Below, piece by piece: positions 6,167 to 29,883 of a stretch of DNA of 34,463 nt (positions are counted from its first letter, which is position 1; every line of letters begins with the position of its first letter). The translations under genes and the position numbers were made by a program. The DNA lies in IMG/VR virus record IMGVR_UViG_3300033156_000333, positions 1-34,463 of that record. One strand, 5' to 3'. The notes beneath the pieces are model-generated. The model had not been told where the DNA came from, searched no databases, and saw only the letters and a program-made list of their open reading frames with translations. The stretch is from a virus.

Positions 6167-6717
6167 TGGGCTGGCCCGCGACCGACAGGTGGGGGACCAT
6201 CATGGCCGACCCTCCCTGGCCCGAGCGTGGAGGCGGCAAGTGCAAGCGGGGAGCGGACAAGCACTACCCGCTGATGCCCGTTGAGGAAATCGCCGCGCTG
6301 CCCGTGCAAGACCTGTGGTCGCCGCGGGGAGGGCACCTGTACTTGTGGACCACGAACAACCACCTAGAGCAGGCGTTTGAGGTCGTCAGGGCCTGGGGGT
6401 GCCGGTACGTAACAGTTATCACCTGGGTCAAATCCGGTGGCCCCGGACTCGGCCAGTATTTCCGCGGCAAGTCAGAGCATTGTTTGTTTGCCGTGACGCG
6501 CCATGCTACACCGCCCTACCGGATGCGGCAGAATGGTACGCGGGCGCAGGGTACAACCATCATCTGGGCGCCCCGGCTAGAGCATAGCCGCAAGCCGGAT
6601 GCCATTTACTCCATTGCGGAGGAGGTCAGCCCCGGTCCGAGGCTGGAGTTGTTTGCCCGCCGCCGGGTATCCGGTTGGTCGGCGTGGGGGAACGAGTGCG
6701 GGGAGGTGGTGGAGTGA
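6163..6717 (+). CDS. MT-A70 family adenine N6-methyltransferase
   Basis: This is a phage-type N6-adenine DNA methyltransferase of the MT-A70 family that would use S-adenosylmethionine. The catalytic motif DPPW is at residues 16-19 (IMADPPWPERG). It is followed by HLYLWTTNNHLEQAF, the VTVITWVKSG strand, the FRGKSEHCLFAV segment, and the C-terminal RKPDAIYSIAEEVSPG and ELFARRRVSGWSAWGNE block typical of the family. The length of 184 residues is normal for a stand-alone phage enzyme. ATGA overlap with the gene before it. Probable role: methylation of phage DNA against host restriction. Confidence 0.9.
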   Translation: MMGWPATDRWGTIMADPPWPERGGGKCKRGADKHYPLMPVEEIAALPVQDLWSPRGGHLYLWTTNNHLEQAFEVVRAWGCRYVTVITWVKSGGPGLGQYFRGKSEHCLFAVTRHATPPYRMRQNGTRAQGTTIIWAPRLEHSRKPDAIYSIAEEVSPGPRLELFARRRVSGWSAWGNECGEVVE

Positions 6718-6995: not shown

Positions 6996-7717
6996 ATGAC
7001 CCAAATACGGGGGGTGTGAAAAACATGTCACCGATAGAGGCTAACCTGGTTGCTTTTTCACCAGATCCTGAACTAACGGTGGCGGCCAGTGCTCGCGTTT
7101 GTTATTCTCGCCGGGGCGTCAGTGAGTTGATGGCCGGGCTGCAGGTGGAGGAGGCTTATGATCTCATTCGCAAACTTATTCGCAAACGCCACCTGTCGCC
7201 GCTGGAGCATGTCGGATTCACCTTCTCTGCGGCTGTCAGTCGTGTTTGCTCCCATCAACTGGTGCGCCACCGCATAGCGTCATACAGTCACCAGAGCCAA
7301 CGCTACGTGAGCATGGATAGGGCCGAATGGCGGCTCCCCCCGGGCATAGTCGCCGACCCTGGGGCCAGGGACAAGTGTCGGGAGCTCCTGGAGCAGGCCC
7401 GCCGGGTGTACACCGAATTGATCGCCATGGGCATCGAACGGGAGGATGCTCGCTACCTCTTGCCGGGTGCGGCGCTCAGCCCAATTGTATTCACGATGAA
7501 TGCCCGCCAGTTGCTGCATTTCTTTTCCGTGCGTTGTTGCCGCCGCGCCCAATGGGAGATCCGCGACCTGGCCTGGTCCATGTTGAAAAAGGCCCGATCG
7601 GTGGCCCCGGTGTTGTTCGAAAGCGCAGGTCCCGCCTGTGCGCGGGGTAGCTGTTCTGAAGGCGACATGACGTGCGGGCGGCCTAAGTGGTGGTTAGAGG
7701 AGGGGCTGAGCGTATGA
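6992..7717 (+). CDS. thyX: flavin-dependent thymidylate synthase ThyX
   Basis: ThyX makes dTMP from dUMP with methylenetetrahydrofolate, FAD and NADPH. The signature RHRxxSxxxxSxRY is complete at residues 92-105 (RHRIASYSHQSQRY). The preceding LIRKRHLSPLEHVGFTF and following LLPGAALSPIVFTMNARQLL then FFSVRCCRRAQWEIRDLA are typical ThyX blocks. The product has 241 residues from ATG 6992 (ATGA overlap). ATG 7025, behind GGGGGTGTG, would give 230 residues starting MSPIEANLV and is equally plausible. Phages often carry thyX to raise dTTP supply. Confidence 0.93.
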   Translation: MNDPNTGGVKNMSPIEANLVAFSPDPELTVAASARVCYSRRGVSELMAGLQVEEAYDLIRKLIRKRHLSPLEHVGFTFSAAVSRVCSHQLVRHRIASYSHQSQRYVSMDRAEWRLPPGIVADPGARDKCRELLEQARRVYTELIAMGIEREDARYLLPGAALSPIVFTMNARQLLHFFSVRCCRRAQWEIRDLAWSMLKKARSVAPVLFESAGPACARGSCSEGDMTCGRPKWWLEEGLSV

Positions 7718-7899
7718 TTGGCGGGATGCAAGAATGGCATGCTGCTGTCCAGGCTATGCACGATGCACAGTCTGCCGTAGACCTCGCCGATCCGAACGAT
7801 CCCGGGGCGCTGGATGCTGCCTTGCTGTGCTTCGAAGCGGCGCGACGCAGATTGGACGGCTTGTACCGGCAGGCTAAACAGGAGGCATTGAGCGCATGA
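7714..7899 (+). CDS. small helical hypothetical protein
   Basis: ATG 7714 overlaps the thyX stop (ATGA) behind GAGGAGGGG and gives 61 residues that look like two helices (MQEWHAAVQAMHDAQSAVDL and DAALLCFEAARRRLDGLYRQ). Probably a helical hairpin; no function recognised. Confidence 0.6.
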   Translation: MIGGMQEWHAAVQAMHDAQSAVDLADPNDPGALDAALLCFEAARRRLDGLYRQAKQEALSA

Positions 7900-7907
7900 G
7901 TTAGGCC

Positions 7908-7950
7908 AGGTGGGCCGGGGTGCATCCCGTGTCCCGGCCCCGGCCCGCCT
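7908..7950 (+). terminator. 13-bp GC-rich hairpin before the replication gene
   Basis: AGGTGGGCCGGGG (7908-7920) pairs with CCCCGGCCCGCCT (7938-7950), thirteen pairs including one T-G wobble, around a 17-base loop. There is no T tract, and the ribosome site of the next gene follows at once. It may be a weak or Rho-type terminator, or an attenuator controlling replication gene expression. Confidence 0.5.
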
Positions 7951-7968
7951 TGCTCGGGAGGGTTGTAA

Positions 7969-8922
7969 ATGCCGAACAGGGGTATAAAGGAGAGCATCTG
8001 TACGTCTGAGACACTGGCCTCGATCTCGCCCGAGGCAGAGCGGCTGTTTTGGCGACTGGTCGTCCAGGCTGACGACTTCGGGCGATACGACGCCAGGATG
8101 AAAACGCTGCGAGGCAAGTGCATGACTGCTATGGTCGATAAAGTCTCACTGCCCGATATTGAGATTTGGTTGAGTGAACTGGAAAAGGCTGGTCTCATTA
8201 CAAGGTATATCGTGGATTCGAAACCTTATTTATACATTACCAGCTGGGAGAAGCATCAGCGCCGCAGATCATCAACATCGAAATGGCCGGAACCCGCGTC
8301 TGGTGTGCTTTACAGCGATGACGGAAATCCTTCGCCGTCAAATGACGGTACATGTTGTCATTCGTCGGCAGATGACAGCACATGTTGTCAAATGACAGCA
8401 GATGTTGCCGTACCCGTACCCGTACCCGTACACGTACACGAGACACGTACACGTACACGAGACTATATTAATATAATGTCGGACTCGCTACAAACCGAGT
8501 CCGACGACTCACCTAACCCACCTGATGACCAGACTACCCCCCCCTGCCGCAGCCGGGATGCCGTTGCACAGGTTGCTGCGAGTCATACCTCATGGAGTCG
8601 CTACTCGGAGCAGGAGCGAGAACAAATAGCCGACTACTGGGACGCCCAGCGATTACGACGACGATCTGGGACCATTTCCTCACGCATCATCGCAACCGAA
8701 ATGGACTACTGGTCGGGTTTCCCACCGGATGCCGCGATGTACGGCGTGAACCGGCACTTACGGGCATACAGGGAGAAACCTGAACGATACACACGGGGCA
8801 TCATCAGAAACCATGTAAGCGAACAGGAGGTGAGGAACCGTGTCAAAACCGATGAGAGTAGGCGACATTCTGAGGACAGAGACGGCGGCGGTAATCGGTA
8901 CAACCGCCTCATCATCGGGTGA
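7969..8922 (+). CDS. replication initiator / replisome organiser-like protein
   Basis: The N-terminal 110 residues (RGIKESICTSETLASISPEA, RLFWRLVVQADDFGRYDARM, ELEKAGLITRYIVDSKPYLY, SWEKHQ) follow the winged-helix layout of phage replication proteins that precede a helicase loader. The middle (about residues 120-185) is low-complexity and encoded by DNA repeats: iterons, hexamers, an AT palindrome and an inverted repeat. This is the arrangement of lambda O, where the origin lies inside the initiator gene. The C-terminal part (ISSRIIATEMDYWSGFPPDA and onward) may contact the loader. It has 317 residues from ATG 7969 behind GGGAGGGTTG. The next gene, starting at 8840, encodes a DnaC-like ATPase, which fits. 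The initiator role is inferred from domain and context. Confidence 0.75.
   Translation: MPNRGIKESICTSETLASISPEAERLFWRLVVQADDFGRYDARMKTLRGKCMTAMVDKVSLPDIEIWLSELEKAGLITRYIVDSKPYLYITSWEKHQRRRSSTSKWPEPASGVLYSDDGNPSPSNDGTCCHSSADDSTCCQMTADVAVPVPVPVHVHETRTRTRDYINIMSDSLQTESDDSPNPPDDQTTPPCRSRDAVAQVAASHTSWSRYSEQEREQIADYWDAQRLRRRSGTISSRIIATEMDYWSGFPPDAAMYGVNRHLRAYREKPERYTRGIIRNHVSEQEVRNRVKTDESRRHSEDRDGGGNRYNRLIIG
8341..8410. repeat. three 20-bp iterons inside the initiator gene
   Basis: Copies at 8341-8360, 8371-8390 and 8391-8410 follow the pattern rATGACrGyACATGTTGTCA. Each contains an imperfect dyad, TGAC...GTCA. The third copy is the most diverged. A weaker relative, GATGACGG...CCGTCA, lies at 8317-8340. 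Spacing is 30 and 20 bases. Repeats of this kind in a replication gene usually bind the initiator itself. Confidence 0.75.
8408..8463. repeat. tandem hexamer tract (CCGTAC / ACGTAC)
   Basis: Four CCGTAC units run into ACGTAC, ACGAGAC, two more ACGTAC, and ACGAGAC. Translated, it is the odd peptide VPVPVPVHVHETRTRTRD. The tract directly joins the iterons to the AT-rich palindrome, so it is best seen as part of the origin rather than as protein-driven sequence. Confidence 0.8.
8464..8505. other. putative replication origin core: AT palindrome plus 10-bp inverted repeat
   Basis: TATATTAATATA (8464-8475) is a perfect 12-base palindrome and the most AT-rich spot in this G+C-rich gene. It is followed at 8478-8505 by a perfect inverted repeat, GTCGGACTCG - 8 bases - CGAGTCCGAC. 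Iterons, then an AT-rich unwinding site, then a dyad, all within the initiator gene, match the organisation of lambdoid origins. Confidence 0.6.
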
Positions 8923-9694
8923 GCCGTACACTTGCGAACATTGCGGGCAGACCGTCAACCCGATAGAGACTGAGATATTCGGCGAGCCCCGCACCTATCG
9001 GGGCACCTGTGAGTGTGTGTTCCGACGGCAGGAGGAAGAGCGGCAAAGACAAGCGGAGGCAGAACGACGGCGGCGGATTGAGGCCAAATTCGGGCTCATC
9101 AGATTCCCGGTTCGCTACACTCACATGATTCTGGATGCGTTCGAGGCCCGACCCGGGAGCGAAAATGCATTTCGGGCCGCACGTGAGTACATAGATCGCT
9201 GGCCGGAACAGATGGATACCGGCGAAGGACTGATGTTGCTCGGCCCGCCAGGTAACGGGAAATCGCACCTCGCGGCGGCTGCTTACCACGCGCTTAAGGC
9301 GCGGGGTTTCGTGCCCGTTCTCGTGGTGGTCCCGGACCTCTGGAATACTATGGACGCGACGTATAGGGCGGGTTCGACAGAGCATGAGGCGGACATATAC
9401 GCAGCTCTAATCGACTGCGACCTGCTTGTGTTAGACGACATCGGGCCAGACAAACCTACCGACAAACGGCGCGAACGGCTATACACGATTGTCAACGCCC
9501 GGCTGCTCCGCAACCGCCCGATCATTGCCACGTCAAATGTCACCGACATGGACGAGCTAGAGTGGCGCATCAGCAAGCGCACCGTCGACAGGCTCATGGG
9601 CGAGTGTCTGACGGTACGAAACTCGGCATCCAGCTACCGTGAGGAGACGGCCGCGAAGAGGAGTGAGCGCTGGTGTCGCAGCAAATCAGGCTGA
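8840..9694 (+). CDS. DnaC-like helicase loader (AAA+ ATPase)
   Basis: The 284-residue protein has an N-terminal zinc site (C32-x2-C35 and C57-x-C59, as in phage DnaC/DnaI proteins) and a long charged helix (about residues 62-82). An AAA+ core follows, with Walker A GPPGNGKS at 135-142 and Walker B LLVLDDIG at 195-202. IIATSNVTDMDELEWRISKR further on fits sensor 1 and the arginine-rich region. It would load the replicative helicase at the origin. GTG 8840 follows AGGAGGTGAGG and overlaps the initiator gene by 83 bases. No replicative helicase gene is seen, so the host helicase is probably used. Confidence 0.9.
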   Translation: MSKPMRVGDILRTETAAVIGTTASSSGEPYTCEHCGQTVNPIETEIFGEPRTYRGTCECVFRRQEEERQRQAEAERRRRIEAKFGLIRFPVRYTHMILDAFEARPGSENAFRAAREYIDRWPEQMDTGEGLMLLGPPGNGKSHLAAAAYHALKARGFVPVLVVVPDLWNTMDATYRAGSTEHEADIYAALIDCDLLVLDDIGPDKPTDKRRERLYTIVNARLLRNRPIIATSNVTDMDELEWRISKRTVDRLMGECLTVRNSASSYREETAAKRSERWCRSKSG

Positions 9695-11051: not shown

Positions 11052-11449
11052 TGTCTGCAACACTGACCATTAAATGCGACATGTGTGGAAAAACAGCACA
11101 GGGGCTCAAGCCGCACGGCTGGTATGCAGACTATGTTTGGGGGCTGCCGAAAGACTTCTGTTCCGATACATGCTACGAGGAGTGGCAAGAACGGGTCGCC
11201 GATGCCGGTGGCGATACAGTGAACACCCGCGAGGCAAGTCTCAATGCGGCGCGGGCAATCATGGAGCACTTAATCTGGAACATGCACCAGCGGCTTCGCC
11301 ATATTCTGGCTGATACCTGGCAGCCAATATCGTTTCGTAGTTACACCATACATCTCCGCTGGTGCGACATCCTACAGTTCGCCGACAACCTGGAAACATA
11401 TGTGGTCGCGCTCCGGGCCGAAGCCAGGAAACGAGGTGAAACCCCATGA
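11051..11449 (+). CDS. zinc-binding hypothetical protein
   Basis: The 132-residue product opens with CDMCGKTAQGL and FCSDTCYEEW, a likely treble-clef zinc site of the type seen in small phage FCS/MYM-like fingers. A helical, tryptophan-rich rest follows (IMEHLIWNMHQRLRHILADT). It is coupled to ssb. Nucleic-acid binding is possible; the family is not recognised. Confidence 0.6.
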   Translation: MSATLTIKCDMCGKTAQGLKPHGWYADYVWGLPKDFCSDTCYEEWQERVADAGGDTVNTREASLNAARAIMEHLIWNMHQRLRHILADTWQPISFRSYTIHLRWCDILQFADNLETYVVALRAEARKRGETP

Positions 11450-12042
11450 TGCTGTTTAAAGAGCATCTGGCGGAGCAGATACTCAACGGCACGAAAACGC
11501 AGACCCGCCGGGACTGGCGGCGCAAGACCGGACCGGACAGGGGCAAGCCGTACTGCCGTATCAAACCGGGCTCAGTCCATCAAGTGCGGACGAGCTTCTT
11601 CTCCCCGCCCGTCTGCCACATCCTGATTACCGATGTGCGCAGGGAGAGGTTGGGGGACATCGGAGAGGAGGATGTCTGGCGCGAGGGTGTCGGCAGCATG
11701 CACGAATTTGCCTGTACATGGATTGACATTAATGGCAGTTGGGACCCTGACGCGGAGGTCTATGTGGTGGATTTCGCCCGCGTCGATACCCGCGAACTTA
11801 CCGCCGACGAGGGTGGCGGCTGGCTAGCCGAGGTGCCTGACTATCCGGGGTTGATGGCCGACGGCGGCACCAAAGAGGAGGCCCTGCGCGAACTGTTGGG
11901 AGCCTGGGAGGCATATAAACGGGCGCAGCGCGATTGCCCCTGCGTTGATTGTCAGTATGGTCCTGCGGGCGAGGCGTTATATCCCGATTGGTGCGGTCAT
12001 CCATTAATAGCGCCCAGCGGAGGTGACGTGACAGATGGATGA
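11446..12042 (+). CDS. ASCH domain - HicB-like domain fusion
   Basis: Residues 1-112 look like an ASCH domain: LAEQILNGTKTQTRR, PGSVHQVRTSFF, VRRERLGDIGEEDVWREG and the closing EVYVVDFARV strand. ASCH domains are PUA-like folds that bind or act on RNA or modified nucleosides. Residues 123-160 (GGGWLAEVPDYPGLMADG, then TKEEALRELLGAWEAYKRA) are a clear HicB-type partial RNase-H fold. A cysteine-rich end (CPCVDCQ, CGH) may bind zinc. HicB normally neutralises the HicA mRNA interferase, but no hicA is next to it, and no DNA-binding tail follows the HicB part. ATGA overlap upstream. Function unknown; both domain calls are by sequence pattern. Confidence 0.75.
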   Translation: MMLFKEHLAEQILNGTKTQTRRDWRRKTGPDRGKPYCRIKPGSVHQVRTSFFSPPVCHILITDVRRERLGDIGEEDVWREGVGSMHEFACTWIDINGSWDPDAEVYVVDFARVDTRELTADEGGGWLAEVPDYPGLMADGGTKEEALRELLGAWEAYKRAQRDCPCVDCQYGPAGEALYPDWCGHPLIAPSGGDVTDG

Positions 12043-13659: not shown

Positions 13660-13874
13660 CTGTTGATGAGTATCGCCGGGTATGGCCCGTAGTAATACTC
13701 ATTGTTTCTGGGTCCCTAATTACTGGGACGTCACTGGGAGCGTTGTCTGAAAACCTTTGGATTTCAATCCCGCTAGGTTATTATGTGCTGGGCATAGTTG
13801 GAGGACTTGGCTGGCTGGTAACAGGCATCACCGCTATATGGGAACACGGACGGAGTAAGAGGCTAACACCATGA
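13656..13874 (+). CDS. small protein with two transmembrane segments
   Basis: GTG 13656 (GTGA overlap, after GCAAGGAGGGAGCG) gives 72 residues. Two hydrophobic stretches are obvious: VVILIVSGSLITGTSLGAL and YYVLGIVGGLGWLVTGITAI, with a charged C-terminus (WEHGRSKRLTP). The topology would suit a holin, but it is far from any lysis or structural gene, so I do not call it one. Confidence 0.6.
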   Translation: MTVDEYRRVWPVVILIVSGSLITGTSLGALSENLWISIPLGYYVLGIVGGLGWLVTGITAIWEHGRSKRLTP

Positions 13875-13954
13875 TGCCCACAGCACTGGTCTATCAGGCG
13901 GCGATGGTGAGCAGATATGATGCCGTCGTGAACAGCAAGGAGGAGAGAGCGTGA
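13871..13954 (+). CDS. 27-residue ORF
   Basis: ATG 13871 overlaps the previous stop (ATGA) and its own stop overlaps the next GTG (GTGA), so the frame MMPTALVYQAAMVSRYDAVV plus NSKEERA fits the coupled-gene pattern exactly. Its final codons form the AAGGAGGAGAG ribosome site of the TOPRIM gene. It may be only a translational coupling peptide. Confidence 0.4.
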   Translation: MMPTALVYQAAMVSRYDAVVNSKEERA

Positions 13955-14766
13955 GTCGGAAGAGTCGGGCGAGCCAAGAACTAGTACGATGTGAAGAACA
14001 GCGTGCACAACTCAAGGTCCTGCAGGCGAAGATTGGCGAGTTGGAGGAGCGATTGAGTTGGAGCGTACCAGGGGCAGAATTGATGCAATCAACCCTGGAC
14101 GATCTTCGTTGTCAAAAGCAAGCAGAGGCAAGAGCTTTGCACCACCGGGCCGTAGAGGCCCTGGAAAAGGACGGCCCGGAAGGCCCCGGAGGCCGCTACC
14201 TGGAGTCCCGAGGAATACCGTTTGCCCTGGCAAAGCGGTATCGTCTCGGCTACGCAGGACCCGGCCAGTGGCCCGGCGGAGGTCCAGCCCGACTAGTGGT
14301 GCCTCATACAACACCACCCGGGGATATTGTCAACCTCTACGGCAGGGCCATAAACGAAGCGGACCAATTTCTCCGGCACCGGAACCTGTTCGGCACGAAG
14401 GGCGTGTTCAACGCGGCGGTCATGAGCGGGCCTTTGGCCTACATCACCGAGGGGGCGTTCGACGCCCTGGCGCTGTTGGCCGCAGGGTTCCCCGCCCTGG
14501 CCGTGTTCGGCCTGCGGGGCCTGCGGTGGGAGTGGTTGCGGGCACGGCGGCTGGTCGTCTGCCTGGACGCCGACGAGCCGGGCCGGAGGGAGGCAAGCGC
14601 GTTGCTGGTCCAGGCGGTGGCCAGGGGCTACGAGACGTGGAGGGCTGACCCTCGGGCCTACGGCGGCTGTAAGGACGTCGCAGAGGCCCATAGGCGGGGC
14701 TGCCTCAACGTCGAGGCGTTGCGGCTTGCGGGTGGTATCACAGACACAAAGGAGGAAAGAGAATGA
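13951..14766 (+). CDS. TOPRIM-domain protein (primase-like, no zinc finger)
   Basis: The 271-residue protein has a charged N-terminal helix (1-70) instead of the CHC2 zinc finger of DnaG-type primases. Next comes a primase-like linker (GGRYLESRGIPFALAKRYRL), then a TOPRIM domain: AYITEGAFDALALLAAGF with E167 and LVVCLDADEPGRREA with D206 and D208, the acidic metal-binding set. It may act as primase, as a bipartite primase subunit or as an OLD/RecR-like nuclease part. Lack of a helicase domain and zinc finger makes a lone primase role uncertain. GTG 13951 start (GTGA overlap). Confidence 0.8.
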   Translation: MSRKSRASQELVRCEEQRAQLKVLQAKIGELEERLSWSVPGAELMQSTLDDLRCQKQAEARALHHRAVEALEKDGPEGPGGRYLESRGIPFALAKRYRLGYAGPGQWPGGGPARLVVPHTTPPGDIVNLYGRAINEADQFLRHRNLFGTKGVFNAAVMSGPLAYITEGAFDALALLAAGFPALAVFGLRGLRWEWLRARRLVVCLDADEPGRREASALLVQAVARGYETWRADPRAYGGCKDVAEAHRRGCLNVEALRLAGGITDTKEERE

Positions 14767-15340: not shown

Positions 15341-15372
15341 GCTTTGTCTGACATCACATTCCCGTGCCTCGA
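15341..15372 (+). repeat. 32-bp direct repeat, copy 1 (fragment of the ParB gene start)
   Basis: These bases match 16251-16282 with two substitutions. In the frame TTG 15344 they read L-S-D-I-T-F-P-C-L-D-V-A-M-P then TAA, close to the real ParB-like start L-P-D-I-T-F-P-C-L-E-V-Q-M-V-P. The TAA at 15386-15388 falls inside the first CRISPR repeat. The two copies flank the whole CRISPR region. Confidence 0.85.
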
Positions 15373-15384
15373 CGTTGCTATGCC

Positions 15385-15779
15385 GTAACAACTGCGGCTG
15401 CGGTCGCGGCTCCGTTGAAGGTCGCCAGCAGGGTTCATGGAGGGCTTTGGCCGGAGTAACAACCGCGACTGCGGTCGCGGCTCCGTTGAAGGACCGTGCC
15501 GCCCCACTCCGGCACGTCGACGTATCTGGTAACAACCGCGACTGCGGTCGCGGCTCCGTTGAAGTGTGGCCATCGCCGACTCCATAAGCAACAGTCTGGG
15601 GTAACAACCGCGACTACGGTCGCGGCTCCATTGAAGCAAGGAGAGTGGCGACCTGGAATACTGCGCCGACGGTAACAACCGCGACTACGGTCGCGGCTCC
15701 GTTGAAGGGATAGCTCCCGCAGGTCCTGGGCCAGCACAGAGACGTAACAACTGCGACTACGGTCGCGGCTCCATTGAAG
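15385..15779. CRISPR. CRISPR array A: six 36-bp repeats, five spacers
   Basis: Repeats start at 15385, 15456, 15529, 15601, 15672 and 15744. Each begins GTAACAAC, contains a 7-bp hairpin CCGCGAC-4 bases-GTCGCGG, and ends in CTCCGTTGAAG (or CCATTGAAG in two copies). Spacers are 35, 37, 36, 35 and 36 bases and all different. Repeats vary at a few positions (loop TGCG or TACG, CCGTT or CCATT), more than usual for an active array. The 3' GTTGAAG end resembles type I/III repeats if transcribed rightward. No cas gene is in the window. Several spacers, read on the minus strand, stay open in one frame, as expected for protospacers from coding DNA. Confidence 0.95.
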
Positions 15780-15813
15780 CAGCAACGCTCCGCGCGATAG
15801 CCGTCAGGTGGAT

Positions 15814-15924
15814 GTAGCATCCGGCCTTCGGGCCGGATGGGGATTGAAACGCCTTAGTGTTGAGGAGGCCCGCCGCAAGCTAGCTAGGTAGCATCCGGCC
15901 TTCGGGCCGGATGAGGGTTGAAAC
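15814..15924. CRISPR. CRISPR array B: two 37-bp repeats of a second family
   Basis: Repeats at 15814-15850 and 15888-15924 begin GTAGCATCCGGCC, form the perfect hairpin CATCCGGCC-TTCG-GGCCGGATG and end in GGGRTTGAAAC, an end typical of type I/III repeats. They are unrelated to family A. The spacer between them (15851-15887) is 37 bases. The gap from the last A repeat to the first B repeat (15780-15813) is 34 bases, the length of a spacer, so A and B are joined as one chimeric array. A second B spacer (15925-15959) leads to a broken third repeat. Confidence 0.9.
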
Positions 15925-15959
15925 CTCTACGCCCTGTTGCGGTTCCTGAACGACCTGTA

Positions 15960-15972
15960 TAGCATCCGGCCC
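15960..15972. repeat. truncated third repeat of CRISPR family B
   Basis: TAGCATCCGGCCC matches the first third of repeat B at the expected distance (35 bases) from the previous repeat and then diverges. It marks the broken end of array B. The 70 bases that follow hold no gene; a small CCTGTG/CACAGG hairpin lies within them. Confidence 0.7.
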
Positions 15973-16023: not shown

Positions 16024-16053
16024 TGGACAACAGACGTGGTAAAGTGGTATACT
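16024..16053 (+). promoter_or_regulatory. sigma70-type promoter for the modification operon
   Basis: TGGACA (16024-16029), 18 bases, then TATACT (16048-16053). Both hexamers differ from consensus by one base. It is the best promoter match I see in the window and lies 41 bases before the first gene of the ParB/methyltransferase/PAPS-reductase unit. The encoded ribbon-helix-helix protein is an obvious candidate to bind here. Confidence 0.6.
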
Positions 16054-16093
16054 AAGACCAGGGAGACAGAAGGGCGGGAAGGAGGCAAAGGCG

Positions 16094-16261
16094 TTGCGGA
16101 AACGGGGCTACATGACGCTGTCGGGCGTGACGGAAGAGTGGCGTATGCATCTGAAGTTAGAGGCGGTGAAGAGGAACCTCACAATGGGCGAGTTGGTGAA
16201 GGCAGCCCTGGCGGAATATCTGGAGCGTCACCCGGTGCCGGAGGTGAAGAGCTTTGCCTGA
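16094..16261 (+). CDS. ribbon-helix-helix (CopG/Arc-like) regulator
   Basis: A 55-residue gene starts at TTG 16094, eight bases after AAGGAGG (16079-16085). The product begins MRKRGYMTLSGVTEEWRMHL and continues KLEAVKRNLTMGELVKAALA then EYLERHP. A short strand followed by two helices with the 'nlTmgELVkaAL.eyl' pattern is the ribbon-helix-helix fold, which binds DNA as a dimer. It is first in the operon, right behind the promoter, so autoregulation is likely. Its stop overlaps the TTG of the ParB-like gene (TTGCCTGA). Confidence 0.7.
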   Translation: MRKRGYMTLSGVTEEWRMHLKLEAVKRNLTMGELVKAALAEYLERHPVPEVKSFA

Positions 16262-16282
16262 CATCACATTCCCATGCCTCGA
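16251..16282 (+). repeat. 32-bp direct repeat, copy 2 (intact ParB gene start)
   Basis: Partner of 15341-15372. This copy is in its proper coding place: the last codons of the ribbon-helix-helix gene and the first codons of the ParB-like gene. It lies 910 bases from the other copy, on the opposite side of the CRISPR array. Confidence 0.85.
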
Positions 16283-16757
16283 AGTGCAGATGGTTCCCGC
16301 CGAGAAGGTCCAGGCGAATGACTACAACCCGAACAAGGTAGCCACACCAGAGATGGAACTGCTCCGTCTGAGCATCGAGGAGGACGGGCTCACGCAACCC
16401 ATTGTAGTCTGCCATGACCCGGACCTGGACAGATACATCGTGGTTGACGGCTTCCATCGTTACGCCCTGTTGGCCAACCACTTCAAGTGCCCCGAAATCC
16501 CGGTGGTCGTCATTGCCAAGGACATCAAACAGAGAATGGCCGCGACCATCAGACACAACCGGGCACGGGGCAAACACCAGGTGGACCTGATGTCGGAGCT
16601 TGTGCGCAGCCTGTACGAAAAGGGCTGGGAGGATGAGCGGATCGCGGAGCACCTTGGCATGAGCGTGGAGGAACTACTACGGCTGAAGCAGATGAGCGGG
16701 GCCGCGAAGCTGCTCGCCGGTTCGGAGTACAGTGCAGCATGGGGTGAAATCGAATGA
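16254..16757 (+). CDS. ParB/sulfiredoxin-fold protein (IbrB-like)
   Basis: The 167-residue protein has the ParB N-terminal domain: VPAEKVQANDYNPNKV, EDGLTQPIVVCHDPDLDRYI, then VVDGFHRYALL with the G-x-x-R nucleotide-binding motif, and MAATIRHNRARGKHQVDLM. A HTH follows (DERIAEHLGMSVEELLRLKQ). ParB-fold proteins of this size are often paired with DUF3440 PAPS-reductase-like proteins, as in the IbrB-IbrA pair; such a partner is encoded four genes on. Some ParB folds are CTPases or ATPases. It starts at TTG 16254 overlapping the upstream stop. Plasmid-type partitioning is unlikely, as no ParA is present. Confidence 0.85.
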   Translation: MPDITFPCLEVQMVPAEKVQANDYNPNKVATPEMELLRLSIEEDGLTQPIVVCHDPDLDRYIVVDGFHRYALLANHFKCPEIPVVVIAKDIKQRMAATIRHNRARGKHQVDLMSELVRSLYEKGWEDERIAEHLGMSVEELLRLKQMSGAAKLLAGSEYSAAWGEIE

Positions 16758-17395
16758 CCCGCTGGACCTACGGCGACAGCTGGGAACGATACCCGATAGA
16801 GCCGGGGCAGGTGTGGATGGAGCGGACGACCGGGAGCAAATTGGCAGTGGTGGACATTTTCCATTCCATGCCCGGCTACATGCATGAGGCGGACATGGTC
16901 TACACCGATACGCCCTGGAACACAGGGAACATCAATACGTTCTACACCAAGGCGGGGCTGGAGGAGCGGCATACGTTTGAGGAGCTGGTTCAGGTCCTGC
17001 TGAGCTATTTGTCATACACGAACCCGCGAGTATGCTACCTGGAGATTGGCAGGCAAAATGCGCACCACTACCGGGGCCTCCTGCGACTGCTATACCCTAT
17101 AGTGCAGGAGTGGCCCATCACCTACTACCGAAAGAATCCGATGCTCCTTCTGCGTGGTGGCGAAGAGCCACAACACTACGATTTCACCGGCGACGACGAC
17201 GGAGTAACGCCGGGGCTGGCGATGCAGGTGGAGGAGTGGACCTGTGTAGCCGACCCGTGCATGGGGCGGGGCCTGACAGCGTGTAGCGCATTTGCTCTGG
17301 GCAAGTCGTTTGTGGGTACGGAATTAAACAAGCGGAGACTGGCGGTTACGATTGACCGGGTAGCGAAACAGGGGGGGGCTTGGACCCATGACTGA
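16754..17395 (+). CDS. DNA methyltransferase (beta-class order, DTPW catalytic motif)
   Basis: The 213-residue protein has the catalytic motif as TDTPWNTG (residues 51-58), a variant of (D/N)PPW, and the SAM-binding loop as ADPCMGRGLTACSAF (166-180) followed by FVGTELNKRRLAV. Motif IV before motif I is the beta-class order of amino-methyltransferases acting on adenine N6 or cytosine N4. ATGA overlap with the ParB-like gene ties it to that operon. It is probably active, with a relaxed second position in the catalytic loop. The target-recognition region is short. Confidence 0.8.
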   Translation: MTRWTYGDSWERYPIEPGQVWMERTTGSKLAVVDIFHSMPGYMHEADMVYTDTPWNTGNINTFYTKAGLEERHTFEELVQVLLSYLSYTNPRVCYLEIGRQNAHHYRGLLRLLYPIVQEWPITYYRKNPMLLLRGGEEPQHYDFTGDDDGVTPGLAMQVEEWTCVADPCMGRGLTACSAFALGKSFVGTELNKRRLAVTIDRVAKQGGAWTHD

Positions 17396-17963
17396 TTATC
17401 ACTCGGCCTTGAAGCCGGAGCTTGAGTTACCGGAGATGGTGGGCTACGAGGCTGGCGGCAGCGTAGTTTTCGCGCATGACATCACCCGAGGTGGCTGCAT
17501 CCATTTCGAGAACGCGGATGCCATCTACTCCGAACCGTCCTGGCGGGACGGGTACGGGAAGTTCAGAGACCGTGCGGGGGCGGACACCGGGGACTACAAA
17601 GCATATCTAGCTGCCCTGTTGCGGATTATCGAAGCCCTTCAGGTGCCGACGTACATGATTATCGGCAAACACATGGTGCGTGACCTGATGCCGGATGCCA
17701 GTGGTGCGATTAAACCCCTTACACTCCACGGCTACCCGGCGCTGTTGGCGCTGTGGAATGCAACTGTAGAAGAGAAACTGCCCACACCGAGGCATGTGAT
17801 CGACTACGTCTGCCAGCGGCATGACGTCATCCTGGATTTCAACTGCGGCTACGGCAACCTAGTAGCGGGAGCGCTGAAGTACGGTAAGCGATTCATCTGC
17901 TCCGACATCAACCGCAAGTGCGTCTACTACGTGGCCACACGGTACATGGGAGCCACGCCATGA
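17388..17963 (+). CDS. degenerate methyltransferase-like partner
   Basis: The 191-residue product repeats the architecture of its neighbour, with residues IYSEPSWRDGY (46-56) at the catalytic place and ILDFNCGYGNLVAGALKYG (148-166) as the SAM loop, then ICSDINRKCVYY. The catalytic (D/N)PPW is replaced by SEPSW, so the usual catalytic Asp is lost while the cofactor loop is kept. Active/inactive pairs of this type occur among MT-A70 enzymes, so a heterodimer with the preceding protein is a reasonable inference. Eight-base overlap upstream (ATGACTGA). Confidence 0.65.
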   Translation: MTDYHSALKPELELPEMVGYEAGGSVVFAHDITRGGCIHFENADAIYSEPSWRDGYGKFRDRAGADTGDYKAYLAALLRIIEALQVPTYMIIGKHMVRDLMPDASGAIKPLTLHGYPALLALWNATVEEKLPTPRHVIDYVCQRHDVILDFNCGYGNLVAGALKYGKRFICSDINRKCVYYVATRYMGATP

Positions 17964-18739
17964 TATACCTCAGCAAGGACATCGGGTTCCTCTCCCCTCC
18001 ACTCGACGGCAGAACGGTGTGCGTGGTGCACAAGGCGTACCCTGCGCCGAACATACCGGATGCACGGGTTGTTGCCTGGGAGGGGTTCGAGGAGGACCCG
18101 CAGGGATGCATCAAGGGATTCGACAACCTCGTCATGGTCGGGCTCAACAAACTCATAACTCCCTCCACCCGCACTAAGCATGTCTGGGAGATAGTCTACA
18201 ACCGGATGCGCGACATCCGCAAGGTGTCGATAGACCGAATGCTGTTTGTCAGTGAACCGTGGCGGGCCTGGTTCCACTTCGGGTTCGTCGGCGCAAAGTA
18301 CCTGGACTACGGCTACAGCTACATCGCCGAGACGCGTTGGAAGCAGTGGCGGGATGGAGTAGAGGAGTTTAACCCTTTCTCGGCTGAGGAAATACTGACA
18401 TGGGCGAAAGGTATAGTGGTCTGTGACTACGTGGAATACTTCGGCAGGCCGACTATCACGGTGATGCCCACCACGGCCGCGCAGAAGGTAGAGTATGAGG
18501 ACCTGAAAGCGCACCTGTTTGAGACGGAGACGACCATCAAGGGCGTGATCACCAAGCTGGCCCGATACGCCCGTGAGGTCTGCCCTGAGCGTAGAGTTCC
18601 CACGCTGGCCAGAGTGTTCGACAGAGAGCAACATGAGATTGTGCGGACGGACCTGAAGGTCGATGAACATCTGGTGAGCGAGCTGGTGGGGCTGATGGAG
18701 CTGACAAACGCCATTGCGGAGGGGTTGCGCTATGGCTAA
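17960..18739 (+). CDS. unknown protein of the ParB/methyltransferase/PAPS-reductase operon
   Basis: ATG 17960 (ATGA overlap) gives 259 residues. I recognise no family. The N-terminal half is alpha/beta and rich in aromatic residues (VCVVHKAYPAPNIPDARVVA, WRAWFHFGFVGAKYLDYGYS). The C-terminal half is charged and helical (EDLKAHLFETETTIKGVITK and onward). There is no Walker, TOPRIM or zinc motif. It overlaps the following gene by eight bases. Being locked between a methyltransferase pair and a PAPS-reductase-like protein, it probably acts with them. Confidence 0.7.
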   Translation: MIYLSKDIGFLSPPLDGRTVCVVHKAYPAPNIPDARVVAWEGFEEDPQGCIKGFDNLVMVGLNKLITPSTRTKHVWEIVYNRMRDIRKVSIDRMLFVSEPWRAWFHFGFVGAKYLDYGYSYIAETRWKQWRDGVEEFNPFSAEEILTWAKGIVVCDYVEYFGRPTITVMPTTAAQKVEYEDLKAHLFETETTIKGVITKLARYAREVCPERRVPTLARVFDREQHEIVRTDLKVDEHLVSELVGLMELTNAIAEGLRYG

Positions 18740-19820
18740 GGCGGCGCTGGTCGAGTACAAGGACATCAACGTGCTGGAGGCCGCAAGACAGCGGATTGCC
18801 AGGATATTCGACGAGTTCGACAATATCGTGGTCAGCGTGTCATCGGGTAAGGACAGCACGGTCTTGTTCCATCTCGCCATTGAGGAGGCCGAGCGGCGCG
18901 ACAGAAAAATGAAAGTGTTCTTCCTTGACCAGGAGGCGGAATACGCGGCAACGGTGTGCCTCATAGACAGCATGATGCGCCACCCAAAGGTCATTCCCAT
19001 GTGGTATCAGGTGCCGATCTATATGACCAACGCGACGTCTCACCGTGAGTATTTTCTCTACGCCTGGGGCGAAGGAGAGGCGTGGATGCGAGAGAAGAGC
19101 GACATTGCCATTCACTCTATCGACGCCGATTACCCGAAGCGGTTCTACGGGTTCTTCGACTGGCTGGAAACGCAGTTTGAGGAGCCTACCGCTATGCTGG
19201 TGGGCATCAGGTCGAAGGAGAGCCTGAACCGGTTCCGCGCCATCACCAAGAACCCCGGCTACAAAGACATTTGGTGGAGCACCAAGACGAAAAACCCCCA
19301 GGCGTGGAGGTTCTACCCCATTTACGACTGGTGCTTCCCCGACATCTGGAAGTATATCGCCGACCACAACCTAGAGTACAACCCCGTCTACGACCAGATG
19401 TTCGCCAAAATAGGCCACAACATCAGTGATATGCGGGTGTCGAACCTCATTCATGAGAAGGCATTCTACTGTCTCGCCAACCTCCAGGAGTTCGAGCCGG
19501 AGACCTACGAGCGATTGCTACGGAGGCTGCAGGGCGTCCACTGTGCGGCGCTATACGCAGACGACAGGCAGGTGTACTCGGCCGACGAGCTCCCCCCCCA
19601 TTTCGGCACCTGGAGGGAATACCGCGACTATCTGCTAGACACTACGCCGACGGACAAGGTGGAGCGATTTAAGAAGCGCTTTGCAGGGCAGGCGGAGAAT
19701 GAAGCGGTGCATCGGCACCAGTGCAGGCAGATACTGTTAAATGACTGGGAGAACAACGTGCCGGTAGTCAGCCGGGGGTTGAGCCCCGAGATGGTGGAGA
19801 AATGGTCGAAAATCCTGTAG
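18732..19820 (+). CDS. DUF3440 PAPS-reductase-like protein (IbrA-like)
   Basis: The 362-residue protein belongs to the PP-loop ATP-pyrophosphatase/PAPS-reductase group: IVVSVSSGKDSTVLFHLAI with the SSGKDS loop at 37-42, FFLDQEAEY after it, AMLVGIRSKESLNRFRAI, and YPIYDWCFPDIWKYI. The C-terminal extension (AFYCLANLQEFEPETYERLL, CRQILLNDWEN) is that of DUF3440 proteins such as IbrA. The PP-loop fold adenylates substrates or moves sulfur; DndC and SspD of DNA phosphorothioation share the fold, but the other Dnd/Ssp genes are absent. The reaction of the DUF3440 group is not established. Confidence 0.85.
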   Translation: MAKAALVEYKDINVLEAARQRIARIFDEFDNIVVSVSSGKDSTVLFHLAIEEAERRDRKMKVFFLDQEAEYAATVCLIDSMMRHPKVIPMWYQVPIYMTNATSHREYFLYAWGEGEAWMREKSDIAIHSIDADYPKRFYGFFDWLETQFEEPTAMLVGIRSKESLNRFRAITKNPGYKDIWWSTKTKNPQAWRFYPIYDWCFPDIWKYIADHNLEYNPVYDQMFAKIGHNISDMRVSNLIHEKAFYCLANLQEFEPETYERLLRRLQGVHCAALYADDRQVYSADELPPHFGTWREYRDYLLDTTPTDKVERFKKRFAGQAENEAVHRHQCRQILLNDWENNVPVVSRGLSPEMVEKWSKIL

Positions 19821-19890
19821 CAGGCAGGAATGGCGAGTGGAAACGTCGAAATAGGACTTACCCGAGCAAGGCGAGCGAAACACCATCTGG

Positions 19891-19932
19891 CTGACCCACC
19901 CCGGATCGGGACACCGGGGCCTGGGTCAGTTT
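19891..19932 (+). terminator. strong intrinsic terminator of the modification operon
   Basis: CTGACCCA (19891-19898) pairs with TGGGTCAG (19922-19929), and inner CCCCGG (19899-19904) with CCGGGG (19914-19919), with a two-base bulge. TTTGTAGTTTT follows. This is the best terminator in the window and closes the transcription unit that begins at 16024. Confidence 0.75.
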
Positions 19933-19964
19933 GTAGTTTTGCGGAGGAAAAGGGGTGTACACGT

Positions 19965-25774: not shown

Positions 25775-26080
25775 ATGCTGACAAAAGAATTGCGGTGCGA
25801 TATTTGCGGCAAGACGCGCAGCTTGGATGCGCCCGGACCCGGATCCTGGATAGGATTAGTGCGTATCTGTGTTGCATCAGACGGGCAATTGGAAAATGAC
25901 CTGATTGTCCACTGCTGCAGTTGGAACTGCGTAGACAGATACCACATATACGTACTACCAACTCTGCGCCATGGGACCAACTGGCCGTCTCCGCTTGATA
26001 CAGACCGCCCTCTCCGTCCGCGCCCAAACGACATCAGGCTAGCCGAAGGCAATGACGCCAGAGTGGACAACAGCCCATGA
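25775..26080 (+). CDS. zinc-finger-like hypothetical protein
   Basis: ATG 25775 gives 101 residues with CDICGKTRSLDAPG at the start and CCSWNCVDRYHIY in the middle, a likely treble-clef zinc site like that of the 11051-11449 product. A proline-rich tail follows. It is coupled to the cytidylyltransferase gene by ATGA. Function unknown. Confidence 0.6.
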   Translation: MLTKELRCDICGKTRSLDAPGPGSWIGLVRICVASDGQLENDLIVHCCSWNCVDRYHIYVLPTLRHGTNWPSPLDTDRPLRPRPNDIRLAEGNDARVDNSP

Positions 26081-26817
26081 AAACCATCGCGATAATCCAG
26101 GCCCGGCTCGGCTCCACCAGACTGCCCGGTAAGGTGCTCCTGCCTCTAGCCGGGCGTCCTGTTTTGGAGCACGTCATCAGGCGCACACAGCAGGCGGTTC
26201 CCGACGTGGTTGTGACCACCCCGGTAGGGGACAAATCCATTGTTGAGCTAGCCAAAACGCTGGGCTGTGAAGTGCACAGGTGGACCGGAGACGAGAATGA
26301 TGTCTCCGGGCGGTTTCGGGCAGTAGTGGAGCAGGAGCAACCGGATGTGTTTCTGAGGGTTACTGGCGACTGTCCGTTGGTTGATCCGAACATCCTAAAG
26401 AGCATGGTCTACATCGCCGAGACAACCACGACGCTCTATATCGATGCCACCAAACGGTATCTCTGCGACGGCGTGGGAGCCGAGTTGGTGGATGCATGGG
26501 AGTTTCTGCGCATTAACCCGAATCGGCTTCTGCCGGACGAGAGGGAGCATGTGACCTGTGAACTATGGACAAGATGGGCGGGGCGTTGTAGGGACGGGAC
26601 GACGCTTGCTCCACGCGCCTGCTGGGACAAGCACAAGCTGTCCATCGATTGGGAAGGCGACTACAAGCGTTTGCAGAGAATCTTCGCCCAGTTCGGGCCT
26701 GAGCCGGATACAGTTGCGTTGCTGACGTTGCTCGCGGCGGAAGCGACGCGCCTGGCGCAGGGGAAAGAGTCAGAATGGGGCAGAGCCGCCCTTTGTGGCC
26801 CGGAATCCCTGTTGTAG
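26077..26817 (+). CDS. spsF: SpsF-type cytidylyltransferase
   Basis: This enzyme should activate a sugar acid with CTP. The N-terminal signature IIQARLGSTRLPGKVLLPLA is that of the SpsF/KdsB/NeuA cytidylyltransferase group (R-x-G-S-x-R-L-P-x-K). FLRVTGDCPLVDPNIL carries the metal-binding D-x-P-L-x-D and REHVTCELWTR the following conserved block. The length of 246 residues is normal. Together with SpsE/NeuB- and SpsG/PseG-like genes downstream it mirrors the Bacillus spsEFG set for a nonulosonic-type sugar. The exact sugar is unknown. Confidence 0.88.
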   Translation: MKTIAIIQARLGSTRLPGKVLLPLAGRPVLEHVIRRTQQAVPDVVVTTPVGDKSIVELAKTLGCEVHRWTGDENDVSGRFRAVVEQEQPDVFLRVTGDCPLVDPNILKSMVYIAETTTTLYIDATKRYLCDGVGAELVDAWEFLRINPNRLLPDEREHVTCELWTRWAGRCRDGTTLAPRACWDKHKLSIDWEGDYKRLQRIFAQFGPEPDTVALLTLLAAEATRLAQGKESEWGRAALCGPESLL

Positions 26818-26848
26818 TTCACTTGCTGATGGCGAGAGGGGGAAATCC

Positions 26849-27202
26849 ATGTCCAAATTCAACAACTGTCCCCGCACGGCCAACAAACTGCCCGACGGCA
26901 CCCTTGAGACGGCCACTTGTAGAATGTGGGACCCCGAGACAGTCACCTGCCGATGTGTGCGGCCTGGGCATCGGTGCTCGGTGCCGGATATCCCGAAATG
27001 CCCCAACCGCGTAGGTGACACCGCGACGGTCGCCATCTGCAACTGCAGGTGGCAGGATGTGCTTGAGATGACCGGGGTCAGTAAATGCACGGCGGCCTGC
27101 AGAAACACTCTGGGACGGAGGGCGCAGGAACTACGAGAGATGTCGGGGGTGAGCTGGTGCGCATCCTCCTGCTGGCGAATAGCGGACTCGGAGTCGAAAT
27201 AG
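26849..27202 (+). CDS. cysteine-rich protein with internal repeat
   Basis: ATG 26849 follows GAGAGGGGG and gives 117 residues with 12 cysteines. Two related blocks close the protein: L-E-M-T-G-V-S-K-C-T-A-A-C and R-E-M-S-G-V-S-W-C-A-S-S-C, so part of it arose by duplication. Earlier cysteines come in CRC and C-x-C type groups. It could bind metal clusters or be disulfide-bonded outside the cell, though no signal peptide is seen. It overlaps the formyltransferase gene by 46 bases. Not recognised. Confidence 0.55.
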   Translation: MSKFNNCPRTANKLPDGTLETATCRMWDPETVTCRCVRPGHRCSVPDIPKCPNRVGDTATVAICNCRWQDVLEMTGVSKCTAACRNTLGRRAQELREMSGVSWCASSCWRIADSESK

Positions 27203-27954
27203 CGCAGTCCCTGCGGGAAGCCCGTGAGAGCGTCCTCGGCCTTGCGGTTCACCCGGACGAAACGGCAAAGCATAAGCAGGCCATCATTACCTGCCACCAC
27301 AACGCTGAGATTATCGTTGTCGATCCACACTGGAAGCAATATGGACAACCGAGGTGGCACACAGAAGCTCTCCGCCTCAAAGCCGACATCGGCGTCAGCG
27401 CCGGGTTCGGGTACAGGGTGCCAAAAGAACTGCTGGCCCACTTGCCCATTGTCAATGTTCACACTGGCTATCTCCCCTACAATCGAGGTGCCTGCCCCAA
27501 CGTCTGGCCCATCATCGACGGCAGCCCTGCGGGAGTCACACTGCACTGGATGGACGAGGGCATAGACACCGGGGACATTATTGCGCAGGAGCGCGTCGAC
27601 GTGCATCCGTGGGACACCGGCGAGACATTGCACTACAGATTACTGGAGACTGCCGCAGAGCTATTCCGTCGCACATGGCCCAGCATTAAGGAAGACACGG
27701 CACCCCGGACGCCGCAGGACCCCGAGACAGGGACACACTACAGGCTGTCTAGCCTCGACGTGATTGACGCAATCGACCTGGACCGGGAGTACAAGGCCCG
27801 CGACCTGGTGAACCTGCTCCGGGCCAGGACGTTCCCGCCGTACCAGGGAGCATACTTCAACGTGCCTGGCTTCGGTCGGGTATACATGCGGCTGGACATG
27901 GAGGCTGTGGAGGACAAGCGGCGGCCGTTTGAGTCGATGGGCTTTCGGGTGTGA
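27157..27954 (+). CDS. formyltransferase-family protein (sugar N-formyltransferase-like)
   Basis: The 265-residue product belongs to the formyltetrahydrofolate-dependent transferases. IVNVHTGYLPYNRGACPNVW and MDEGIDTGDIIAQ contain the catalytic set Asn100, His102 and Asp137 with the same spacing as methionyl-tRNA and GART formyltransferases. In this sugar cassette a role in N-formylating an amino-sugar (as with PseJ-like enzymes) is more likely than tRNA formylation. GTG 27157 begins MRILLLANSG, the expected first strand; upstream in-frame ATG 27085 lacks a family match. Confidence 0.82.
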   Translation: MRILLLANSGLGVEIAQSLREARESVLGLAVHPDETAKHKQAIITCHHNAEIIVVDPHWKQYGQPRWHTEALRLKADIGVSAGFGYRVPKELLAHLPIVNVHTGYLPYNRGACPNVWPIIDGSPAGVTLHWMDEGIDTGDIIAQERVDVHPWDTGETLHYRLLETAAELFRRTWPSIKEDTAPRTPQDPETGTHYRLSSLDVIDAIDLDREYKARDLVNLLRARTFPPYQGAYFNVPGFGRVYMRLDMEAVEDKRRPFESMGFRV

Positions 27955-27984
27955 GGGGTAGACACATCTGGGGAGGGGTGCACA

Positions 27985-28245
27985 GTGGACATTCAAGACA
28001 TGAAGTGGACTTGTGAGGATGGCTGGGATTATTACAAAGTTCCAATGGTAGAAGCCCTGCGAAGGGCAGCCAGTATTCAGGCGTTTTACCTGGATGCACT
28101 TCGCGCAAGGGCTGATGGCGAATCCGAGTTCCGGCTTACCCCGAAGCTTGAAGGCATCCCCTGGGACACACTTGAAGCGATGGTAGACGGAACGTTCAAC
28201 CTGGAGCGCAAGGCGGCCAAGGAGCAGCCCAATAAAACTGACTAG
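27985..28245 (+). CDS. hypothetical protein in sugar cassette
   Basis: GTG 27985 follows GGGGAGGGG and gives 86 residues, mostly helical (MVEALRRAASIQAFYLDALR, LEAMVDGTFNLERKAAKE). No family recognised. Its AAGGAG near the end serves the next gene. Confidence 0.55.
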   Translation: MDIQDMKWTCEDGWDYYKVPMVEALRRAASIQAFYLDALRARADGESEFRLTPKLEGIPWDTLEAMVDGTFNLERKAAKEQPNKTD

Positions 28246-28501
28246 CCTGCTCTGGTACGTCAAACAGTTGCTCCCTCTTGCCTACTGGTCTTGGTACATT
28301 GACGCCGACGGCACTTTGTATTTGTGCATTTGGCGCATGTGGTTTGGCAGGCACTTCGACGTCCTTGACCTGCCGATTGGTGCGGCTGTCCGAGCACGAT
28401 ACCCAGAGCGCTCCCTAAATCTGGAGTATCTCTATCATTCCACAGAACCTTTATCGATGCGGGAGCGGCGGACGCGATATAGCCGAGGAGAGAGACTGTA
28501 A
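28238..28501 (+). CDS. small conserved phage protein, start uncertain
   Basis: The frame gives LLWYVKQLLPLAYWSWYIDA and DGTLYLCIWRMWFGRHFDV, the pattern of a short phage protein ('...yirqLLPLtYrsrYrd..G..hf..WRMWFGR.F...') of unknown function. The conserved part begins before the only standard codon, TTG 28268. The real start is therefore probably CTG 28238 or ATA 28232; AAGGAG at 28219-28224 is seven bases from the latter. The stop is TAA 28499-28501. Confidence 0.5.
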   Translation: MTSLLWYVKQLLPLAYWSWYIDADGTLYLCIWRMWFGRHFDVLDLPIGAAVRARYPERSLNLEYLYHSTEPLSMRERRTRYSRGERL

Positions 28502-28537
28502 TCACCATACGGGGTAACACGCCTAGGGGGTAGCAAC

Positions 28538-29587: not shown

Positions 29588-29635
29588 GTGCACCGCCCTG
29601 TTCGTGAGGGGTAACATCATCAAGGGGGTACGAAG

Positions 29636-29881: not shown

Positions 29882-29883
29882 CA

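Follow-up and report, generated by a model that had tools for sequence, protein, structure and literature searches.

A phage operon as the accessory module left over from an enlarged type IV-B CRISPR locus

A reduced type IV-B locus in a phage genome

The window analysed here is a 34.5-kb linear phage fragment (34,463 nucleotides (nt), IMG/VR record IMGVR_UViG_3300033156_000333), in which an operon of ParB-like, methyltransferase and DUF3440 genes is the accessory module that survives from an enlarged type IV-B CRISPR locus, as is well supported by a sister phage and by the distribution of the genes. The best explanation, which we hold with about even confidence, is that this operon serves to modify nucleic acid within a minority variant of type IV-B, and that the Csf cassette was lost in the window phage. 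The function named in the original prediction, nucleic-acid modification or counter-defence, stays the best guess.

Six overlapping genes, as had been described from the sequence alone, are located on the plus strand, and each pair of neighbours shares 4-8 bases. They encode a small protein resembling RHH regulators (16094-16261; RHH_1 E 0.031, under the cut-off), a ParB/sulfiredoxin-like protein similar to IbrB with a DGFHR motif (16254-16757; ParB_N 5e-9, phrog_2159 1.9e-63), the putative methyltransferase MT1 (16754-17395), its paralogue MT2 (17388-17963), a protein of a new 259-residue family, referred to here as UNK (17960-18739), and DUF3440, a PP-loop ATPase similar to IbrA (18732-19820; PAPS_reduct 1.5e-20, DUF3440 3.2e-11).

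The sister phage (IMGVR_UViG_3300033141_002294, hereafter G001; 68 kb) is about 92% identical to the window over much of the latter and carries the same ParB-MT1-MT2-UNK-DUF3440 genes. The operon had been regarded as self-contained, but in G001 these five genes form the 3' end of a longer type IV-B operon, in which csf1, a small 'HAVKRF' open reading frame (ORF), a Cas11-like gene, csf2, csf3 and a CysH-like gene precede them in overlapping frames. The NCBIfam type IV matches of G001 (Csf1 3e-16, Csf2 1e-20, Csf3 4e-20) are under the curated cut-offs and mutually consistent, and together with the CysH-like gene (PAPS_reduct 1e-13) they identify the locus as type IV-B. The small 'HAVKRF/ERV' protein recurs in type IV-B loci (G001, L001 5136-5504; L011, L036, L040, L042) with profile E values of 1e-30 to 1e-44 and belongs to no known family; a further match in L035 is doubtful.

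The window does not carry the gene set of a type IV-B locus: only the start of csf1 (19 codons) and the very end of cysH are left. The csf1 remnant marks the left edge of the replaced cassette (13871-13927, plus strand; tblastn with residues 1-19 of G001 Csf1, 84%, E 3.5e-5). The DNA is near-identical to that of G001 up to a breakpoint at about 13922, in csf1 codon 19, and the alignment resumes at 16234. From about this position the last codons of the RHH-like ORF are, judging from the alignment, the end of the deleted cysH: its C-terminus reads VPEVKSFA, against VPEVKNFA at the end of G001 CysH. The RHH call for the regulator that the original prediction placed at the head of the operon is weak. 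An RHH-like gene is also found near the operon start in two type IV-B loci, L057 and L058.

The DUF3440 tree groups the window with G001 as its sister, both lying inside a clade of csf-bearing loci; thus, the cas genes were most simply lost in the window rather than gained in G001, and the sequence comparison points to loss of the whole csf1-to-cysH block. The five remaining genes are all under purifying selection, the ratios of nonsynonymous to synonymous substitution (dN/dS, window against G001) being 0.05 for ParB, 0.056 for DUF3440, 0.075 for MT1, 0.10 for UNK and 0.23 for MT2. Since selection on the remaining module is strong, it is at least useful without Csf, and the two phages, without and with the Csf cassette, amount to a natural deletion experiment.

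Distribution of the module

UNK was identified by profile search in ten loci. Eight of them are viral (the window, G001, L010, L011, L035, L036, L038 and L039), one lies on a haloarchaeal plasmid (L032, Actinarchaeum halophilum NZ_CP071309.1) and one in a metagenome-assembled genome (MAG) of Sorangium (L040). Outside the window, csf genes are present in seven of the nine UNK loci (five viruses, the haloarchaeal plasmid and the Sorangium MAG) and in none of 20 viral DUF3440-ParB loci without UNK (Fisher p 2.3e-5, uncorrected for relatedness and contig ends). The complete csf1-3 set occurs in L010, L011, L032, L035 and L036, and csf2-3 in L040, where the contig is cut; a cysH-like match was obtained in G001 and in most other csf-bearing UNK loci. 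A broader UNK search across 379 genomes of the phylum of the Sorangium MAG gave only the known Sorangium match as a solid one. The scans for UNK loci and for type IV-B loci were both pattern-based and miss distant members.

The position of the module varies. It follows cysH in G001, L032 and L036, while in L010 and L011 ParB-UNK-DUF3440 are enclosed by type IV-B genes, with csf2 on one side and cysH on the other. The core common to the type IV-B loci with the module is ParB-UNK-DUF3440. In L057 and L058, DUF3440-ParB-MT1 are placed between csf3 and cysH, and a 309-residue protein stands at the UNK position; that of L057 was tried as an UNK homologue and rejected, as the match is a weak collinear one (E 0.014). 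The conservation of the gene neighbourhood, which the original prediction had named as a check, is borne out by these other genomes, and so is the partnership of ParB and DUF3440, which occur together in nearly every relative. A search of the available literature gave no paper on type IV CRISPR-Cas with csf2 and ParB; a prior mention in the survey of Pinilla-Redondo et al. is possible.

Another reading is that independent type IV-B and IbrAB-like cassettes recombine into one phage hotspot and are neighbours by coincidence. Each of the two sets is also found alone, and the csf block was cleanly lost in the window while the remainder was kept, as might be expected of separate cassettes. However, the genes overlap in one operon and are interleaved in different orders, the arrangement is shared by phages, the haloarchaeal plasmid and the myxobacterial MAG, and the DUF3440/UNK clade is mostly csf-bearing, so that we regard coincidence as unlikely. 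A second kind of linkage between type IV-B and IbrAB genes is provided by the Rhodovastum plasmid NZ_OW485605.1 (L042), which carries a type IV-B locus and, nearby on the opposite strand, a separate DUF3440-GNAT-ParB set without UNK.

DUF3440 and CysH-like proteins

The GKDS sequence of the PP-loop is kept in all 30 DUF3440 proteins compared, in which no alignment column exceeds 40% cysteine; the 17 CysH-like proteins have no conserved cysteine column either. DUF3440 of the window is 32-63% identical to homologues in other phages. Among solved proteins, CysD and FAD synthase come nearest to it in sequence; both are PP-loop enzymes that transfer adenylyl groups. A kept PP-loop without conserved cysteine fits adenylation and does not fit phosphorothioation, and the chemistry most naturally expected of DUF3440 is an adenylation and then a substitution. 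Of the sulfur or adenylation step suggested earlier, the sulfur alternative is not supported.

The original prediction had hinted at a variant of Dnd/Ssp-like phosphorothioation, while calling the operon distinct from these systems. DUF3440 is indeed weakly similar to DndC (NCBIfam 3e-7; PADLOC 1e-9), but conserved cysteines are absent, as are the partners expected for phosphorothioation: no cysteine desulfurase, DndD or DndE was found among the operon genes or seen alongside, and none was noticed in the window ORFs, not all of which were scanned. Phosphorothioation was therefore rejected and is considered very improbable, and the distinctness from Dnd/Ssp holds. The same conclusion, against phosphorothioation and in favour of adenylation, has been reached for CasCysH in a review of type IV systems (PMC8175902).

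Methyltransferases

Sequence motifs predict MT1 to be a beta-class amino-methyltransferase with intact motifs in the order IV (DTPW, replaced by DPPW in relatives) and I (DPCMGRG). The Pfam matches of MT1 (N6_N4_Mtase 1.7e-4) and MT2 (6.9e-4) rest on motif I and are both below Pfam's cut-off. For MT2, an AlphaFold model (pLDDT 73.5) matches the fold of M1.HpyAVI (3e-6), MboII and CcrM, and the alignment reveals SEPS or IPW in place of the (D/N)PP(W/Y) of motif IV. As this motif is degenerate, MT1 and MT2 may be a pair of catalytic enzyme and pseudo-enzyme, by analogy with METTL3-METTL14. The two methyltransferase-like proteins noticed earlier thus have, or approach, the fold of DNA amino-methyltransferases, but they are not central to the module, in which the pair is optional. 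MT1 relatives were found in L010, L020, L032, L035 and L057. The 86.7-kb virus L035, which has a type IV-B locus, encodes MT1 and ParB jointly in one ORF (7571-8992).

These observations bear on the possibility that ParB and DUF3440 work in the manner of IbrA and IbrB, co-activating or switching the transcription of genes of the phage or its host, while the two methyltransferases would lay down an epigenetic mark and the proximity to type IV-B genes would reflect an accessory region of the phage that both share. IbrA and IbrB are annotated as co-activators of prophage gene expression (PMC4490671, PMC8813620), and DUF3440-ParB pairs without any CRISPR genes are common in phages and plasmids. 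Regulation of this type, however, leaves unexplained the strictly kept PP-loop and the fused MT1-ParB, and the genes are embedded in csf operons in at least three arrangements, the DUF3440/UNK clade being mostly type IV-B. We consider it possible but rather improbable.

A third methyltransferase of the MT-A70 family is encoded elsewhere in the window (6163-6717; 6.7e-28). This protein alone could give N6-methyladenine in virion DNA and so confound modification tests of the operon.

The UNK family

Sequence searches with UNK gave nothing significant in Pfam, PHROG, NCBIfam, PADLOC or the sequences of PDB, so a fold search was needed. The AlphaFold model (pLDDT 91.7) gave as best Foldseek matches SNF2 remodellers in PDB (8.5e-4) and phage SNF2/DEXDc helicases among viral models (1.7e-4). 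Neither a GKT (Walker A) motif nor a Pfam helicase match was found in the nine members. UNK is accordingly modelled as a new family with a fold resembling an SNF2/SF2 helicase lobe without Walker A. True SNF2 helicase genes adjoin DUF3440 or UNK in L025-L027, L031, L038 and L039. That UNK is directly homologous to the SNF2 helicases encoded beside it in L038 and L039 was considered and dropped, as profile comparison gave no support.

The replacement segment and its CRISPR arrays

The segment that replaces the csf1-to-cysH block contains a Toprim/primase-like gene (13951-14766, plus strand; phrog_47 DNA primase 2.7e-14, no match in G001), a short ORF, a duplicate of the junction between the end of cysH and the start of parB, two CRISPR arrays (plus strand) and the RHH-like ORF. 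The duplicate lies immediately before the arrays (15341-15375, plus strand) and is 91% identical to 16251-16285; ParB residues 1-13 were also matched at 15344-15382. The two copies of the junction flank the arrays and the RHH-like gene, and the duplication is a footprint of the event that brought in the array segment.

A repeat scan identified mini-array 1 (15385-15813, repeats 15385-15779), which consists of six 36-nt repeats with spacers A1-A6 of 34-37 nt and has a predicted repeat hairpin of -14.4 kcal/mol (z -3.4). Mini-array 2 (15814-15961) has two 37-nt repeats (15814-15924), 37-nt spacers B1 and B2 and a degenerate third repeat; it matches Rfam RF01322 CRISPR-DR9 (45.3 bits), and its repeat hairpin is predicted at -19 kcal/mol (z -3.6). 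The repeats of the two arrays differ from one another. Both arrays show regular repeats with unique spacers, as virus-borne mini-CRISPR arrays do, and among the module-bearing loci the repeat scan found arrays in the window only. These arrays directly upstream, as well as the csf1 remnant and the cysH end within the RHH-like gene, had been overlooked in the original prediction.

The tail-assembly-chaperone gene of G001 agrees with spacer A2 at 28 of 37 positions, and the corresponding genes of three Streptomyces phages are 87-91% identical to this spacer over 30-32 nt. For spacer A3, the tape-measure gene of G001 agrees at 26 of 36 positions, and a tape-measure gene of a Gordonia phage is also similar. 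With shuffled spacers, the best score in 480 trials was 26. The A2 and A3 matches suggest guides against related tailed phages, and virus-borne mini-arrays have been described with spacers against related viruses (PMC6858448). In plasmids, three incoherent matches and no coherent target were found. A candidate target of spacer B1 in G001 was dropped, as nothing matched beyond 16 nt. The attempt to identify the host through the repeats also failed: repeat 2 had no match in genome_contigs and repeat 1 none in viral_contigs.

The mini-array at this very place, which points to inter-phage conflict, might also speak for signalling or abortive infection, in which the PP-loop enzymes would adenylate a target or make a nucleotide messenger once the Csf complex or ParB senses nucleic acid of an invader, protecting the lysogen from other phages. 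A cysteine-less PP-loop fits AMP transfer, and second messengers are among the hypotheses of the type IV review (PMC8175902). The operon, however, encodes no recognisable effector such as a nuclease, membrane protein or messenger sensor, and the module survives without Csf in the window phage; this explanation seems decidedly unlikely.

A possible mechanism

Returning to a modification module of a type IV-B variant, the ancestor would have had a single operon csf1-cas11-csf2-csf3-cysH-parB-MT1-MT2-UNK-DUF3440, as kept in G001. In the window phage the csf1-to-cysH block would have been swapped for the segment with two mini-arrays and the RHH-like gene, leaving ParB-MT1-MT2-UNK-DUF3440 intact and under selection. 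The ParB-like protein and UNK, with its helicase-lobe fold, might hold and open DNA; DUF3440 might adenylate the substrate with release of pyrophosphate, similarly to CysD, FAD synthase or TilS and not to DndC; and the MT1/MT2 pair, one member catalytic and the other degenerate, would methylate it. Where Csf is present, an RNA-bound Csf filament and CysH may direct or extend the activity, and where it is absent, the module may act on the phage genome generally. The CRISPR RNAs (crRNAs) of the mini-arrays might be supplied to the CRISPR system of the host against competing phages. Gene content, synteny, the remnants, conservation, the folds, the PP-loop without cysteine and the likeness of spacers to tail genes are what the analysis shows; that the module modifies nucleic acid, that its proteins form a complex, that RNA guides it and that host Cas proteins take up the crRNAs is inferred. 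A composite version, in which a Csf ribonucleoprotein guides a machine of CysH, DUF3440, ParB, the SNF2-like protein and methyltransferases in modifying nucleic acid, the Csf cassette being swappable for a mini-array, is offered tentatively and is itself unlikely.

Several observations weigh against a modification module tied to type IV-B. Among 44 viral type IV-B loci sampled with Csf2, 40 are without the module, which is present only in G001, L011 and L057/L058; the type IV-B plasmids of Rhodococcus and the Skermania phage SPI1 are also without it. Since most of the sampled type IV-B loci do without the module, it is not required for type IV-B as such and marks a minority variant. Conversely, L038 and L039 carry UNK without csf genes, and the methyltransferase genes are optional among the module loci. 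The structural match of UNK has a TM-score of about 0.5, its top PDB and viral matches being mostly SNF2/SF2 with E values of 1e-4 to 1e-2. The spacer A2 and A3 matches are partial, and both repeats are missing from the collection in which each was sought. To our knowledge, neither enzymatic activity nor a modified base has been reported for DUF3440, IbrA/IbrB or type IV-B CysH.

Other features of the window

A promoter-like site (TGGACA-18-TATACT with an extended -10) is located upstream of the operon (16024-16053, plus strand). What had been called one good promoter does score 10/12 against the consensus, but the region holds little more of these sites than chance would give (four found, 2.4 expected). 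Where a strong terminator had been called, a stable terminator-like hairpin with a T-rich tail is confirmed (19890-19934, plus strand; -28 kcal/mol, z -1.9).

Genes for nonulosonic-acid-type sugars are found amid virion structural genes (26077-30963): a cytidylyltransferase (CTP_transf_3 1.9e-24), an N-formyltransferase (7e-18), NeuB (1e-61) and a protein judged PseG-like by eye. They are possibly involved in glycosylation of the virion or host surface. The window also encodes short tandem Pro-Gly-Met/Leu repeats (PPGMPPGL; 1-432), partly conserved in G001, and a phage protein in which an ASCH domain is joined to a UPF0150/HicB-like domain (11446-12042).

Comparison with known systems

MT1 and MT2 share their fold with beta-class DNA amino-methyltransferases such as M1.HpyAVI, MboII and CcrM; the motif order in MT1 is IV-I, and MT2 is without the canonical motif IV. 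The two proteins of IbrA/IbrB, DUF3440 and ParB_N, stand side by side in the window as well, but here UNK lies between or beside them, and a methyltransferase pair and the linkage to type IV-B are added. With Dnd/Ssp and type 4 BREX (DndC, SspD, BrxP) the module has in common a PP-loop/PAPS-reductase fold and a partner of the ParB superfamily, which in Dnd is DndB (PMC12839542). It differs from them in having no conserved cysteine, desulfurase, DndD or DndE, and methyltransferases instead. The arrays resemble other virus-borne mini-CRISPR arrays (PMC6858448; those of Chiyouvirus and Fuxivirus, PMC10848311) in being short and in having some spacers with partial similarity to related viruses' genes, whereas the window array sits exactly at the place of the lost type IV-B effector cassette and its repeats did not turn up in the collections searched.

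A further close relative is type IV-B CRISPR-Cas as known, for example, from Mycobacterium sp. JS623, Rhodococcus plasmids and Fuxivirus, whose csf1-csf2-csf3 and CysH-like PP-loop genes are also present in G001 and most of its relatives. Here, ParB, UNK, a second PP-loop enzyme (DUF3440) and often MT1 are added. Type IV-B loci normally carry no CRISPR arrays; the window itself has no csf or cysH genes and yet has arrays. What role type IV-B CRISPR and its constant CysH-like companion play is listed among the open questions of the field (PMC8175902, PMC7937560). The presence, in one operon with type IV-B genes, of another PP-loop enzyme without conserved cysteine, together with a ParB-like protein, a new family resembling a helicase lobe and, often, a DNA amino-methyltransferase, makes the idea of modification, not cleavage, concrete and testable.

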